The notes under the pieces are model-generated. The model did not search any database. It had not been told where the DNA came from and saw only the letters and a program-made list of their open reading frames with translations. Positions 55,501-62,548 of a stretch of DNA of 64,000 nucleotides are shown here, piece by piece; positions within the stretch are counted from its first letter, which is position 1, and every line of letters starts with the position of its first letter. Source of the DNA: Gemmatimonadaceae bacterium. GTDB taxonomy: Bacteria > Gemmatimonadota > Gemmatimonadetes > Gemmatimonadales > Gemmatimonadaceae. The stretch covers positions 1-64,000 of the forward strand of contig JACCWE010000156.1 in the NCBI GenBank assembly GCA_013697785.1. The letters are read 5' to 3'. A program made the position numbers and the translations under genes.

Positions 55501-55716
55501 GGCGTCCTGCGCGGTGCTGTTGGAAGGTCGACCAGTCGCTGGTCTTCACCTGTTCAACAATTGGATGCACGAACGGCGCGGATGGTTTACATGATGAGAG
55601 ATTTTTGCGCCGTGTGAGATCGCGCGGAGGGGCTAGCTGCTCGGGCAGGGCGCCTTGACGCTCCCGGCGCGAGGGCCCAGACTCACTTGCTTCGCTCACC
55701 CTTCGCTCCCCACCGA

Positions 55717-57762
55717 ATGCGTATTCGCCTTCTCGCCACCGCGCTGTTCTCGTGCGCCGTGCCGCTCGCCGCTGCCGCTCAGCGCGTCTCCACCGTGCCT
55801 CTCATTCCCGAGCCCACCGTCGCAGCACTCGCCGGCGAGCTCTCGGGCGCATCCGCAAAGCGGAACCTCGAGTTCATCACGCGTCAGCATCGGATGCGCG
55901 CGTCGAGGGGCTTTCGGAGCGCCGCGGACTTCGTGGCGGCGCAGGCGAAGAGCTACGGGCTCGAGGAGGTCGTCGTGCACGAATTTCCAGCGGACGGACA
56001 CACGATGTACGGCACGCAGAGAGCGCGACTGGGTTGGGATCCCGAATTCGCCGAGCTCTGGGAGGTGCGCGCGGATGGCAGCCGCATCGCGCCGGTGGTG
56101 CGCGTCGCGAGCTTCGAGGATGAGCCGGTGATCCTGGCCGAGGACAGCGACAGCGCGGATGTGACGGCGGAGCTCGTCGATGTCGGCGCGGGGACGTCGG
56201 ACAAGGATTACGCGGGGAAGAACGTGCGCGGGAAGATCGTGCTCACGTCGGAGGCACCGGGCGATGTGGTTCCGCTGGCGTACGACAAGTACGGCGCGAA
56301 GGGAGTCGTGAGCGCAGCGCAGAACCAGCCGAATGCGTGGTCGCGCGAGGATGTGAACGCGATTCGCTGGGGCCACCTCGATTCCTTCGAGGCCAGGCAT
56401 GCGTTCGCGTTCATGGTGTCGCTCAAGCAGTACCGCGGCTATGTCCAGCGTCTGGCGGCCGGGGAGCACGTGATGCTGCACGCGATCGTGAAGGCATCGC
56501 GCCACGCGGCGACGTACAACCCGGTGACTGCGCTCATCCCAGGGAGTGATCGAAAGAACGAGGAGATCGTGTTGAGCTGCCATCTCGATCATCAACGTCC
56601 CGGCGCGAACGACAACGCGAGCGGCTGCGCGACGATCCTCGAGGTCGCGCGCACGATTTCGAAGCTCGTCGCCGACGGGAAGATCGGCCGGCCATCGCGA
56701 GGCATCCGCTTCGTGTGGCCCTGCGAGGTCGAGTGCACGCTCGCACTTTTCCACTCCGAGCCCGGGATGCTCGCGCGCTTCAAGGCCGTGATTCACATGG
56801 ACATGGTCGGCGGCGGACCGGTGACGAAGTCGATCTTCCATGTCGGACGCGGACCGCTGAGCCTTCCATCGTTCGTGAGCGATGTGGGACAGCGCTTCGG
56901 CGCCTTCATGAACACCGAGTCGCAGATGTACGCGCAGGGCACGGGCGGGAAATATCCGATGATCTCCGGCGAAGGGGGGAAGGAGCCGCAGCTCGGCGAT
57001 CTCGACGAGTTCACGATGGGGAGCGACCACGAGCTGTATCAGGAGGCATCGTGGAGGATTCCCGCCATCTACATGAACGACTGGCCCGACCGCTACATCC
57101 ACACGAATTTCGATCTTCCCGCGAACATCGATCCGACGAAGCTGCAGCGCGCCGCGTTCATCGGCGCCGCGAGCGCGCTCTACCTCGCGAACTTCAAGTC
57201 GACCGATACGCCGGCGCTTTGGTCGGTGATGGAATCGGCGTCGCTGCGCAGGCTCGCGCAGATGCTCGATCGCCGCTCCACACTCTCGGCCGCTGACGGC
57301 GCGGCGCTCACGCGCACGTTCCTGGCCGAGGAGCGCGGGGCGTTCGAGTCGATCGCATCGTTCGCGGCGATCCCCGACAGCACGAAGCAAAGTGCGAACG
57401 CGTACTTCGCGCGCCTCGAGACGATCACCGGCACTCCCGCCGCACCGCCTCCCGCGAGCGGCGACGGCGCGCTCGTCTTCGCGCGCAATACTGCCGTGAG
57501 CGGGCCAATGGTGGTGTTCGGCTACGACTATCTCGCCGACCACACCAGGGGAAAGATCGTCCCGAAGCTGCTCGACTTCGAGGGGCTGCGCGGCGGTGGT
57601 GGTGAGTATGGTTACGAGGTACTCAACTTCGTCGACGGAAAGCGCAACGTGCGCGACATCCGCGATGCGGTGAGCGCGGAGTACGGGCCCGTCGACATCG
57701 CACTCGTGACGGAATATCTGCGCGCGCTGGAAAGCGCGGGCGTGATCAAGGCTGCGAAGTAA
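55717..57762 (+). CDS. M28-family metallopeptidase with PA-like insert, secreted (paralog 1)
   Basis: Signal peptide; VLSCHLDHQRPGANDNASGCA zinc/catalytic motif. Confidence 0.88.
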   Translation: MRIRLLATALFSCAVPLAAAAQRVSTVPLIPEPTVAALAGELSGASAKRNLEFITRQHRMRASRGFRSAADFVAAQAKSYGLEEVVVHEFPADGHTMYGTQRARLGWDPEFAELWEVRADGSRIAPVVRVASFEDEPVILAEDSDSADVTAELVDVGAGTSDKDYAGKNVRGKIVLTSEAPGDVVPLAYDKYGAKGVVSAAQNQPNAWSREDVNAIRWGHLDSFEARHAFAFMVSLKQYRGYVQRLAAGEHVMLHAIVKASRHAATYNPVTALIPGSDRKNEEIVLSCHLDHQRPGANDNASGCATILEVARTISKLVADGKIGRPSRGIRFVWPCEVECTLALFHSEPGMLARFKAVIHMDMVGGGPVTKSIFHVGRGPLSLPSFVSDVGQRFGAFMNTESQMYAQGTGGKYPMISGEGGKEPQLGDLDEFTMGSDHELYQEASWRIPAIYMNDWPDRYIHTNFDLPANIDPTKLQRAAFIGAASALYLANFKSTDTPALWSVMESASLRRLAQMLDRRSTLSAADGAALTRTFLAEERGAFESIASFAAIPDSTKQSANAYFARLETITGTPAAPPPASGDGALVFARNTAVSGPMVVFGYDYLADHTRGKIVPKLLDFEGLRGGGGEYGYEVLNFVDGKRNVRDIRDAVSAEYGPVDIALVTEYLRALESAGVIKAAK

Positions 57763-57803
57763 CGCCTCCGCATTCGTCGTAATTCTCCTCCGACTTCCAC
57801 TCC

Positions 57804-59882
57804 ATGCGCGTCCGCATTCAGCTGCTTGCAACGATCACGCTCGCACTACTCCCCCTCACCGCACCTGCGCAAGTCGTGGCGCCCCTGTCGTTCGGGGTGA
57901 AGAGCACTGCGACTCCGCCTCTCATTCCCGAAGCGACCGGCGAGGCGCTCGCGAACGAGCTGTCGGGATCGCTCGCCAAGCGCAACATCGAGTACATCAC
58001 GCGACTTCATCGGATGCGCGCGTCGAAGGCTTTTCGCACCGCCGCGGAGTTCGTCGCGGAGCGCGCGCGCGCGTACGGTCTCGAGGAGGTGAAGATCCAC
58101 GAGATCCCCGCCGATGGCCACACGATGTACGGCACACAGAAGTCGCGCCCGGGATGGGATGCCGACTTCGCCGAGCTCTGGGAGGTGAAGTCGGACGGCG
58201 GGAAGGTGACGCCGGTGTCCCGCATCGCGAGCTTCGATGACGAGCCCGTGATTCTGGCCGAGGACAGCGACAGCGCCGATGTCACGGCACAGCTGGTGGA
58301 CGTTGCCGTCGGTGGGGCGGACGCCGACTACGCCGGCAAGGAAGTGAAGGGGAAGATCGTGCTCATCTCCGGTCCGCTCACCGACGCCGCGCCTCTCGCC
58401 ATCGACAAGTACGGCGCGAAGGGAATGCTCAGCGACATGCCGAATCAGGTGACGGCGTGGTGGAAGGAGGATCAGAGCCTCATCCGCTGGGGCCATCTCG
58501 ATGCGTTCGAGAAGCGACGCACGTTCGCCTTCATGCTCAATCAAACACAGGCGCACGGGCTCTCCGAGCGACTCGCCCAGGGTGAGCACATCTTGCTGCA
58601 CGCGGTCGTGCGCGCCGCGCGACACGCGGCGGCGTACAACCCCGTCACCGCTCTCATTCGCGGCACGGACCGGAAGAGCGAAGAGATCGTCTTCAGCTGC
58701 CATCTCGATCACCAACGGCCCGGCGCGAACGACAATGCGAGCGGCTGCGCGATGAATCTCGAGATCGGTCGCACGATCGCAAAGCTGATCGCCGACGGAC
58801 GAATCCCTCGTCCATCGCGCAGCATCCGCTTCGTGTGGCCGTGCGAGGTCGAGTGCACGATGGCGCTGTTCAACTACGAGTCCGAGCTGCGCTCGCACTT
58901 CAAGGCCGTGATTCATCCGGACATGGTCGGCGGCAACCAGAATACGAAGGCCGTTTTCCACGTCGCCGACAGCCCGCTCAGTCTCCCGACGTTCATCAAC
59001 GATGTCGGGCGCGCGATGGGATCGTTCGTGAGCGTCGAGTCCGAGGAGTTCGCGGCGGGACGCGGTGGGAAGTATCCGCTCAACTCCGTGGAGGGAGGTA
59101 AGGAGCCTCTCCTCGCGCAGTTCACCGAATTCCAAATGGGGAGCGACAACGAGCTCTATACCGAGGGGTCGTATCGCATCCCGGCGATTTACTTGCAGGA
59201 CTGGCCCGATCGCTACATCCACACGAATCTCGACGTCGCCGCGAACATGGACGCCACCAAGCTGCAGCGCGCCGCATTCATCGGAGCGGCGAGCGCGCTC
59301 TTTCTCGCGAACATGAGATCGTCCGATGTGCCCGCGCTCTGGACCGTGATGCAGAGCGGCGCTCTCCGCCGCGCCGCGCTCGTGCTCGAGCGCCGCCCGA
59401 AGCTCTCGCCCGCCGACGCCGCATCGTACACGCGCGAATATCTCGCGCAGGAGCACGCGGTGTTCGAGTCCATCTCGGGCTTCGCCGCGATCCCGGACAG
59501 CGTTCGCCGCAGCGCCGACACGTTCTTCGCTCGCCTCACCGAGATGCTGAGCCCTGCCTCGACGCGCGAAAAGCCGGCCGCCGATGCGACGCCTGTCTAC
59601 TCGCGCAATCCCGCGATCTCCGGACCGACGATCGTCATGGGCTACGACTATCTGATCGAGAATCTCCACGGCGCCCCTGCACCCAGGCTGCTTGCCTTCC
59701 AGGGCGCGCGCGGCACAGGCGCCGACTACGCGTACGAGGTGCTCAACTTCGTCGATGGCAAACGCACCACGAAAAAAATCCGCGACATGGTGAGTGCCGA
59801 ATTCGGGCCGGTCGACATGAGCGTCGTCGCCGAGTACTTCAAAGCCCTCGAGACGGCGGGCATGGTGAAGGCCGCGAAGTGA
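57804..59882 (+). CDS. M28-family metallopeptidase with PA-like insert, secreted (paralog 2)
   Basis: VFSCHLDHQRPGANDNASGCA; colinear similarity with the preceding gene over its whole length. Confidence 0.88.
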   Translation: MRVRIQLLATITLALLPLTAPAQVVAPLSFGVKSTATPPLIPEATGEALANELSGSLAKRNIEYITRLHRMRASKAFRTAAEFVAERARAYGLEEVKIHEIPADGHTMYGTQKSRPGWDADFAELWEVKSDGGKVTPVSRIASFDDEPVILAEDSDSADVTAQLVDVAVGGADADYAGKEVKGKIVLISGPLTDAAPLAIDKYGAKGMLSDMPNQVTAWWKEDQSLIRWGHLDAFEKRRTFAFMLNQTQAHGLSERLAQGEHILLHAVVRAARHAAAYNPVTALIRGTDRKSEEIVFSCHLDHQRPGANDNASGCAMNLEIGRTIAKLIADGRIPRPSRSIRFVWPCEVECTMALFNYESELRSHFKAVIHPDMVGGNQNTKAVFHVADSPLSLPTFINDVGRAMGSFVSVESEEFAAGRGGKYPLNSVEGGKEPLLAQFTEFQMGSDNELYTEGSYRIPAIYLQDWPDRYIHTNLDVAANMDATKLQRAAFIGAASALFLANMRSSDVPALWTVMQSGALRRAALVLERRPKLSPADAASYTREYLAQEHAVFESISGFAAIPDSVRRSADTFFARLTEMLSPASTREKPAADATPVYSRNPAISGPTIVMGYDYLIENLHGAPAPRLLAFQGARGTGADYAYEVLNFVDGKRTTKKIRDMVSAEFGPVDMSVVAEYFKALETAGMVKAAK

Positions 59883-61216
59883 GGCTCCCACATCCGCTGA
59901 CGCTGCTCGTCGGATGTGTGATCGTCGCGGCGGCGCTGTCGCACGTGCTCCCGGCGGGGCAGTTCGAACGGCGCGATGACCCGGCCACGCAGCGCAAGGT
60001 CGTCGTCGCCGGCAGCTACCATCGAGTCGACCCCCACCCGCTCGGCCCCTTCGACACCATCGTCGCGATTCCCGACGGCATCATCGACGCCGTCGCCGTC
60101 ATCACCTTCATCTTCCTGGTCGGCGGTGCGTTCGCCGTCGTCGAGAAGACCGGCGCGCTTCACGATGGCATCGACTGGCTCGTGCGCCGGCTCGGCACGC
60201 AGGGCATCCTCGCCATCCCGATCGTGGCGCTCGCCTTCGCCGCGGGAGGCGCGTTCGAGAATATGCAGGAAGAGATCATCGCGCTCATCCCCGCCCTGCT
60301 CGTGCTCACGCAACGACTCGGCTTCGATGCGATAACCGCGGCCGAGATGAGCGTCGGCGCGGCGGCGGTTGGATCGGCCTTCAGCCCCGTGAATCCATTT
60401 CAGGTGCTGATCGCGCAGAAGGTCGCATCGGTTCCGCAGCTCTCGGGCGCCACGTACCGAATCGCCTTTCTCGCCATCGCTTTGATGCTCTGGATACTCG
60501 GCACCATGCGGCGTGCGCGCCACACGCGAGTCGCCGTCGTCGAAGCGACAACGAATACAGCAGCGCGTGAGTTCGGTACGCGTGGCAAGGTAGTGATTGC
60601 GGTGGTGCTCCTGACGTTCACCATCTTCGTGTACGGAGTCGCGCAGCTGCATTGGGATTTCAATCAGGAGGCGGCGCTCTTCTTCGCGATGGGATGCTGC
60701 GTTGGAATAATCGGCGGCCTCGGTGTCACCGGTACGGCCGAGGCGTTCGCGGAGGGCTTCGGATCCATGGCGTATGCGGCACTGCTCGTCGGCTTCGCGC
60801 GCGCGATCTCCGTCGCGATGGAACAGGGGCTGGTGATCGATACCGTGGTAAACGGCCTCGCGGCATCGCTCGCCGGCCTTCCGGTAGCCGTGGCGGCAGT
60901 CGGGATGATGTTGGCGCAGGCTGCTATCCATGTGCCGGTGCCAAGCGTGAGTGGGCAGGCAGTGCTCACCATGCCGGTTTTCGCGCCCGTGGCCGACCTG
61001 CTTCACATGTCTCGGCAGGTTGCCGTCCTGGCGTACCAATACGGCGCCGGAATGTGCGAGCTGCTGACGCCTACCAATGGCGGGCTGCTCGCGGTGCTCG
61101 CGGCGGCCGGCCTTCGGTACGACGAATGGATCCGCGCTGCCTGGCGCATGATCTTGCTGGTCGGCTTTACCGGCGCGGTGGCGGTGATCGTAGCCGTCGT
61201 GATTGGGCTGAGTTAG
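59879..61216 (+). CDS. YfcC-like / C4-dicarboxylate or amino-acid anaerobic-type membrane transporter
   Basis: TLLVGCVIVAAALSHVLPAGQFERRDDP; FLVGGAFAVVEKTGAL; NPFQVLIAQKVA; LTPTNGGLLAVLAAAGLRYDEW. GTGA coupling with the upstream peptidase. Confidence 0.8.
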   Translation: MRLPHPLTLLVGCVIVAAALSHVLPAGQFERRDDPATQRKVVVAGSYHRVDPHPLGPFDTIVAIPDGIIDAVAVITFIFLVGGAFAVVEKTGALHDGIDWLVRRLGTQGILAIPIVALAFAAGGAFENMQEEIIALIPALLVLTQRLGFDAITAAEMSVGAAAVGSAFSPVNPFQVLIAQKVASVPQLSGATYRIAFLAIALMLWILGTMRRARHTRVAVVEATTNTAAREFGTRGKVVIAVVLLTFTIFVYGVAQLHWDFNQEAALFFAMGCCVGIIGGLGVTGTAEAFAEGFGSMAYAALLVGFARAISVAMEQGLVIDTVVNGLAASLAGLPVAVAAVGMMLAQAAIHVPVPSVSGQAVLTMPVFAPVADLLHMSRQVAVLAYQYGAGMCELLTPTNGGLLAVLAAAGLRYDEWIRAAWRMILLVGFTGAVAVIVAVVIGLS

Positions 61217-61377
61217 GATCCGTCTGTCGCTCGGCGAGCTGAGCAATTCCGCGCGGGGCTTGCATTTTGGGCTCACGCTATGGCATTATCCTCGCTGCAG
61301 TGCTGTCGACGGGCGCCAAAGTGGCCCCGATTTCCACCGGGCAAGCGGCCCGGAAAAACCTTCGACATGGAGGAACG

Positions 61378-61551
61378 GTGTACCACAAGCCGAAGGTGGA
61401 ACGGTTCGGGACGTTCCGCGAGTTGACGCAGGTCGGTTTCAACGGGACCACGGATGGCTTCACCATCTGCGGCGCCAACGGTGGAACTGGCAACGAGCTT
61501 TGCGATGGTCCGCCGGAGACTTGCCGGGACGGTTCGCCGGTTCAGGGCTAA
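61378..61551 (+). CDS. Putative lasso-type RiPP precursor peptide (57 aa)
   Basis: GGAGG Shine-Dalgarno at 61369-61373, GTG start. MYHKPKVERFGTFRELTQV leader matches YxxPx(L/V)xxxGxxxxxT with exact spacing; Gly-rich, 3-Cys C-terminal region GFNGTTDGFTICGANGGTGNELCDGPPETCRDGSPVQG. Confidence 0.75.
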   Translation: MYHKPKVERFGTFRELTQVGFNGTTDGFTICGANGGTGNELCDGPPETCRDGSPVQG

Positions 61552-61570: not shown

Positions 61571-61610
61571 AACATGGGGGCAGTCGGCTTCGGCCGATTG
61601 CCCCCATGTT
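61571..61610. terminator. 40-nt near-perfect hairpin (18-bp stem, C(UUCG)G loop on + strand); possible bidirectional terminator / mRNA stabiliser
   Basis: AACATGGGGGCAGTCGGC-TTCG-GCCGATTGCCCCCATGTT, one G-T wobble. Minus side followed by TTTTC. Confidence 0.75.
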
Positions 61611-61615
61611 CGTTC

Positions 61616-62548
61616 TCAGGGAAGAGCGTGCGGGACGATCACGCGTAGGCTCTTCGGCCGCGTTCGATAGTGAAGCGGCGTCTTCATCCGCTGCACCTCG
61701 CCGTCGGTCGCTACCAATAGCTGCTGGTGTCGTGTGTCGATGATGAAGTCGGTGGCTGTGAGCGCCTCGAAATCGCGCGCCTGTTTGAGGCGGCCGATGA
61801 GCGCCTCCAGTGACAGCCGCAGCAGCGCAGCGCGTCCCTCCTTCTTCACGATGTAAATGCTGAGCCGCCCCGCGTCGATGCACGCACGTGCACCGATGTC
61901 GAACCCTTCCATCGTATACTCGTTGTTGCCGATGAAAACGAGCGGAGTGACGAGCACGCGCTTGGTCCCCTCGACCTCGAGCCGCACGGTGAGAAAGGGA
62001 TAGCGGCGGAAGGCCGCGATCGACGCCCAGACGAGTGAGCGCCACTTCCCGCGGCCAAGCCGCGTCTGCTGGCGCTCGCGATCCCGGACCATGTCCGGGT
62101 AGAGGCCGAGGCTCGAGTTGTTGATGAAGACCTTCCCGTTTACCTCGCCGACGTCGACCGAGATCGACTGCCCGTCGATGATGTTGCCGACTGCCTCCTC
62201 GAGCTCGAGCGGAATTCCGAGATCCTTGGCGAAGTGATTGAGGGTGCCGAAGGGAAGAACGCCGAGCACAGTGTCGGAATCGACGAAGGCAGCAGCAGCG
62301 GTGCTGATGGTGCCGTCGCCGCCCGCCGCTACGAGCAGCCGCGGGCGTTCCGCCACGGCAGCGCGCATGAGCGAGTCGAGCTCTTCCCCGCTCGAAGCAA
62401 GTCGCACGTCGACGCGAAGGCCGCCCGCGATGAAGAGATCGGTGAGCGTCTCGACTCGCTTGTCGACGTGCGGATTCCCCGCTCCGGCGTTGATGATGAC
62501 CGGAACGATGCCGCTCAGATGGGCGCTGCGTGCTGCGGATGTGCTCAT
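61616..62548 (-). CDS. Diacylglycerol kinase-family lipid kinase (second paralog)
   Basis: VIINAGAGNPHVDKRVE, LLVAAGGDGTISTAAAAF, GVLPFGTLNHFAKDLGIP. Confidence 0.9.
   Translation of the reverse strand: MSTSAARSAHLSGIVPVIINAGAGNPHVDKRVETLTDLFIAGGLRVDVRLASSGEELDSLMRAAVAERPRLLVAAGGDGTISTAAAAFVDSDTVLGVLPFGTLNHFAKDLGIPLELEEAVGNIIDGQSISVDVGEVNGKVFINNSSLGLYPDMVRDRERQQTRLGRGKWRSLVWASIAAFRRYPFLTVRLEVEGTKRVLVTPLVFIGNNEYTMEGFDIGARACIDAGRLSIYIVKKEGRAALLRLSLEALIGRLKQARDFEALTATDFIIDTRHQQLLVATDGEVQRMKTPLHYRTRPKSLRVIVPHALP

Follow-up and report, generated by a model that had tools for sequence, protein, structure and literature searches.

A conserved lasso peptide precursor gene unlinked from its probable kinase-type cluster in a genus of Gemmatimonadaceae

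The 57-codon gene A2 (61378..61551, forward strand) is probably a functional second precursor gene of the single lasso peptide system detected in the genome of a Gemmatimonadaceae bacterium, and its product would be matured in trans by enzymes encoded on another contig. The window, that is, the whole stretch of 64,000 nucleotides analysed, belongs to contig C80 of this 3.8-Mb genome, which comprises 169 contigs, and the enzymes are found on contig C45. The best reading of the product is a lasso peptide of the kinase type whose core is unusually long and contains three Cys. The chemistry is expected to be that of ordinary lasso biosynthesis, the new parts being the gene architecture and a structured 5′ element.

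The initiation signals of A2 can be read directly in the DNA, in which a GGAGG Shine-Dalgarno motif (61369..61373, forward strand) precedes a GTG start codon at 61378, and the frame runs for 57 codons to a TAA stop at 61549-61551, as an earlier, sequence-only reading of this stretch had proposed. The same reading had maintained that a longer frame, opening at 61267, hides the real start; the GTG codon is kept across the genus and in the sister genus g22, so the longer frame is not the gene. The leader peptide (residues 1-18, 61378..61431, forward strand), recognised by the NCBIfam model NF033521 (lasso_leader_L3), carries Y2, P5, V7, G11 and T17 at the positions claimed, in the lasso spacing YxxPx(L/V)xxxGxxxxxT with T at -2. 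The search with a lasso-leader model that had been proposed as a check gave A2 24.7 bits, above the cut-off of 19 bits (25.1 bits in the genome-wide search), and no Pfam model matched the precursor. This cut-off was passed at only two places in the whole genome, A2 and C45:17944 (26.8 bits), the next-best match staying below it at 11.9 bits. The leader motif is short, which would favour a chance resemblance, but that reading is already refuted and deserves practically no credence, given that A2 is conserved in five species and 84% identical to the precursor that lies within the lasso cluster on C45.

This cluster is encoded on one strand in the order B1, B2, C, precursor, HprK-like protein, ABC-2 ATPase, permease and NTP_transf_5 protein. 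B2 exceeded the NCBIfam cut-off (lasso_biosyn_B2, 51.2 bits, cut-off 33), and B1 (PqqD, 52.7 bits) and C (Asn_synthase, 124.2 bits, with the SGGWDS motif present) were above the Pfam cut-offs and below the strict lasso-specific NCBIfam ones. B1 also matched its homologue TbiB1 (PDB 5v1u/5v1v; E 7.6e-7). The HprK-like protein (L042:13150-14151) contains H..GKS..DD, in which the His-Lys-Asp-Asp of the kinase, as expected of a paeninodin-type cluster, could be read, and its match to the HMM for HprK-related kinase A was weak (29.3 bits, cut-off 200); the NTP_transf_5 protein scored 143.8 bits. B1, B2 and C, whose presence is required of a lasso producer, therefore occur together on C45, and the absence of such homologues from the genome, which the sequence-only reading had named as grounds for abandoning its proposal, does not apply. 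Its remark that no lasso enzymes accompany A2 holds for the window, in which none was found, and is incomplete for the genome. Around A2 (L044, a stretch reaching the contig end) no cluster gene was matched, B2 being on other contigs, so that A2 does not lie beside its enzymes, an arrangement that is customary and has no chemical necessity. The leaders of A2 and of the clustered precursor differ at residues 3 and 6 only, and their first 20 core residues are identical. On contig C48, a protein with a stand-alone, B2-like Transglut_core3 domain (L043 9505-9891) was considered as a second lasso locus and rejected, neither a cyclase nor a B1 having been matched next to it; Transglut_core3 matches outside the lasso cluster also occur in G001, G002 and G004.

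The C45 cluster resembles the known kinase-type lasso clusters, namely those of paeninodin (PadeK), pseudomycoidin (PsmK/PsmN) and Bradymonas bsf (BsfA, B1, B2, C, D, K, N), in having discrete B1, B2 and C, an HprK-like kinase, an ABC exporter and a nucleotidyltransferase (PMC9266682, PMC10368454). A2 itself is like Bradymonas BsfA in the spacing of leader Y(-17) and P(-14), and the BsfA ring is closed to Asp8 (PMC9266682, PMC10368454). Unlike in those clusters, a second precursor is found here outside the cluster, and the core of about 39 aa contains three Cys.

RiPP precursors acting in trans, with genes away from the modifying enzyme, are found among the prochlorosins, which belong to the lanthipeptide class and form large diversified sets, in contrast to the one near-identical extra copy seen here. 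The precursor genes of caulosegnins, caulonodins and astexins-2/-3 sit inside the cluster, unlike A2, which is unlinked and has a 5′ element and a 3′ hairpin of its own. In these latter systems several precursors are served by one enzyme set (PMC7549694), and the present genome would be similar in having more than one precursor per enzyme set, if processing is shared.

Placing Y at -17 and T at -2 makes V19 core residue 1 and puts D26 on core position 8. Accordingly, the core of A2 (residues 19-57, 61432..61548, forward strand) would begin with a VGFNGTTD ring, predicted to close from the V1 amine to D8, followed by GFTICGANGGTGNELC and a variable, Cys-containing tail. One of the two core starts offered in the sequence-only reading was this one, with Val as the first residue and Asp at position 8, and the homologue alignment proposed at the time agreed, both the leader and the Asp being conserved: D8 does not vary within the genus or in g22. 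The Val in first position, like the length of the core, counts against the lasso reading. An alternative core start at G20, which would place the Asp at position 7, fits the leader spacing more poorly than V19. Lasso precursors are expected to bear Asp or Glu at core 7-9, as A2 does with D8, and an acid was found there in 27 of the 33 Gemmatimonadota precursors of this leader family, counted from the same leader spacing. Those without it are L027, L031, L080, L081, L089 and the precursor of G007, a side listing naming L059 with the other five; some of these acid-less precursors adjoin B1/B2/C genes and possibly give a non-macrolactam or differently cut product.

Since precursors of the same leader family may have no acid at core 7-9, the leader alone is no proof of a macrolactam. 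A2 might thus be matured by the same enzymes into a non-threaded, leader-sharing RiPP, such as a branched-cyclic or disulfide-linked peptide, with a long tail containing Cys. This alternative, to which the 39-aa core, longer than typical lasso cores, its three Cys and the six acid-less relatives lend some force, is considered unlikely, although the likeliest of the rivals, because D8 is invariant in the subfamily of A2 and the cyclase retains the ATP-binding SGGWDS motif. Three Cys are likewise seen in g22 and in the remaining copies of this genus.

The C-terminus departs from the paeninodin type, in which the C-terminal Ser is the phosphorylated residue. The A2 peptide ends in GSPVQG, so that Ser is not its last residue, and within the genus this near-C-terminal Ser is usually followed by Pro and a short stretch beyond it, in contrast to other genera, whose precursors, including most of the clustered homologues, mostly end in Ser. 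The orphan copy of G003 has lost the GSP motif, which, like the strong divergence of the orphan tails, counts against the favoured reading of A2. As Ser is not terminal in this genus, the target of the kinase is uncertain.

A functional A2 is supported by its conservation. Both copies were present in five of five genomes of the genus, each with exactly two leader matches. One copy per genome lies directly downstream of C in the lasso cluster, the contig ending just after it in two genomes, and the other, unlinked copy is always flanked by M28 peptidase/YfcC genes on one side and the gene of a YegS-type lipid kinase on the other (in G002, YfcC is absent there). A point against the reading is that the five genomes all seem to be MAGs; the occurrence of the orphan in the same neighbourhood in all five indicates that the unlinked copy is no binning accident and that it predates the radiation of the genus. 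Among the five orphans, pooled NG86 estimates of dN/dS were 0.065 for the leader, 0.092 for core residues 19-42 and 0.37 for the strongly divergent tail, with an overall pS of about 0.42.

The sequence-only reading had left two options for a lasso precursor without local enzymes, maturation in trans or a relic. The complete cluster with its closely similar precursor supports this framing, and maturation in trans is the better supported of the two. The view that A2 is a decaying duplicate of the clustered precursor, without a role, could draw on the shortness of the homologous segment (about 205 bp, with unrelated flanks) and on tails that diverge faster in the orphans than in the clustered copies (pN 0.40 vs 0.10). 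It is nevertheless improbable, since the gene is intact in the five species, with the same start, leader and ring Asp despite the synonymous divergence, the 5′ element is retained, and the low dN/dS of leader and core indicates purifying selection, which argues against a relic. Even less probable is a function other than that of a mature product, such as a leader decoy titrating B1; the leader is indeed the most constrained part and the tails are free, but core residues 19-42 are nearly as constrained, and the core variant A33-N34, needless for a decoy, is common to both loci in one clade. A functional precursor matured in trans is thus the reading retained for A2.

The two copies seem to have a mosaic history. 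The segment homologous between A2 and the clustered gene is 81% identical and extends from the P2 hairpin of the 5′ element to near the stop codon. Leader DNA sorts by locus, with four diagnostic sites that split all orphans from all clustered copies. Core DNA, in turn, sorts by species clade: GCC AAC occurs in both copies of G000 and G004, and both copies of G001-G003 have ATC, then GGC or a gap, at that place. Gene conversion of the core would be the simplest reading of this pattern and rests on only two strictly diagnostic sites; parallel selection is the alternative reading. In the comparison intended to find an empty site, a search of other genera of the family gave no close lipid kinase orthologue at the threshold applied, and in g22 nothing matched the transporter.

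The neighbours of A2 serve mainly as markers of context. Upstream lies a YfcC/DcuC-family transporter gene (59879..61216, forward strand; PF03606, 267.7 bits), taken from synteny as a context marker only, and downstream a YegS/DAGK-type lipid kinase gene (61616..62548, reverse strand; PF00781, 84.8 bits), which marks the conserved synteny in each of the five genomes. Beside A2 (window 55687-59882), two M28 peptidases are encoded in tandem; their N termini resemble signal peptides, and their conserved C-terminal segment is weakly PqqD-like (one of the two scored 17.4 bits, below the cut-off of 23.4, and hhalign gave 40% for B1). This tail is probably a generic winged helix, and these peptidases are only weakly linked to RREs. 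An RRE-like tail on a peptidase adjoining a RiPP precursor deserves attention all the same.

Upstream of A2, a 5′ element composed of two GC-rich hairpins was recognised (61310..61355, forward strand; P1 ~61310-61329, P2 61337-61353) by the covariance model R1, by covariation and by its fold z-score of -2.5. The hairpins are separated by a linker of 5-10 nt. The element precedes both copies and also clustered A genes in several other genera, with about 22-28 nt between its end and the start codon (22 nt for A2). R1 was built from 21 sequences, and its match at A2 (48.9 bits, E 2.4e-8) concerns a site that is itself in the training set. In the realigned set, covariation was 0.186 vs 0.090 after shuffling (0/500) and two-sided changes occurred in 17 cells vs 7.5 expected by shuffling, counts that lean on a model-fitted alignment of related sequences; sliding the partner columns abolished the signal. 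In this genome the two strong R1 matches are those of the two A genes, the third-best having an E-value of 0.34, and among 60 genomes the strong matches lie upstream of lasso A genes, including that of G082, which is outside the model, with the exception of one in an apparent permease gene of G076. The matches at G076:C107 and G081:C41, away from lasso genes and apparently in other coding sequence, were set aside as chance. No credible Rfam family was found for the element, which is apparently undescribed, and its role can be guessed at as precursor-specific control of translation or mRNA stability.

After A2, a long terminator-like hairpin was found (61571..61610, forward strand; -38.2 kcal/mol, z -8.2). 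Its U-run is weak at A2 and clearer in the four orthologues, and it was not among the terminators called by a strict scan. A sigma-70 scan upstream of A2 found no promoter. A block upstream of the 5′ element, TGGCATTATCCTCGC (window 61245-61300), is common to four of the five orphans and is a promoter candidate off the sigma-70 consensus.

A comparable arrangement was seen in the genus g30, in which G033 has an unlinked precursor (L080) on a contig of 493 kb, where no lasso gene was recognised up to about 10 kb away from it. The L080 core is closely similar to the core of the clustered copy of G033 (L081) and differs from the A2 core, and neither has an acid at core 7-9. The gene positions thus indicate that g30 has the same two-copy architecture with a different core. 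Further apparent orphans, which came from comparing leader and B2 matches (G025:C11, G030:C76, G032:C37, G017:C11), adjoin C, kinase or exporter genes and were reclassified as clustered. In G044, two short canonical-looking lasso precursors, L085 (start 10189) and L091 (start 1590), with cores GGGPAGGGDAASVYHRS and GGGSTLQGDATNLYHRS, had no recognised core lasso genes in the surrounding stretches examined and are possibly further unlinked precursors.

Maturation in trans, ring closure, export and separate regulation are what we infer for A2, in the following way. The A2 mRNA would carry the same two-hairpin element as the clustered gene, and the cluster-encoded B1, a PqqD-like RRE, would bind the A2 leader. 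B2 would then cut after residue 18, leaving T17 at -2, C would link the amine of V1 with the side chain of D8, and secretion of the product would be the task of the ABC exporter. Modification by the HprK-like kinase and the NTP_transf_5 protein may take place as well, though the Ser that they usually target at the C terminus is not terminal in A2. Being unlinked, A2 could be supplied independently of the enzyme operon. Put forward more tentatively, as a possibility held with less than even confidence, the genus-wide unlinked precursor and the clustered one might form a two-gene regulon by means of a structured 5′ RNA of a new class, their cores kept alike by gene conversion while their tails diverge, and the same architecture might have arisen independently in g30.

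In the literature searched (titles and abstracts, few subscription journals), neither unlinked lasso precursors nor a 5′ element of this kind were found to be described. Genome mining for lasso peptides usually seeks precursors beside their enzymes, and a conserved unlinked precursor would be missed in this way. The two genes would offer one enzyme set two natural precursors, almost identical in leader and ring and different in their tails, in which the tail tolerance of B1, B2, C and the kinase is directly testable. Moreover, the 5′ element is a candidate regulatory RNA marking lasso precursor genes across Gemmatimonadota, and could help to find more of them.
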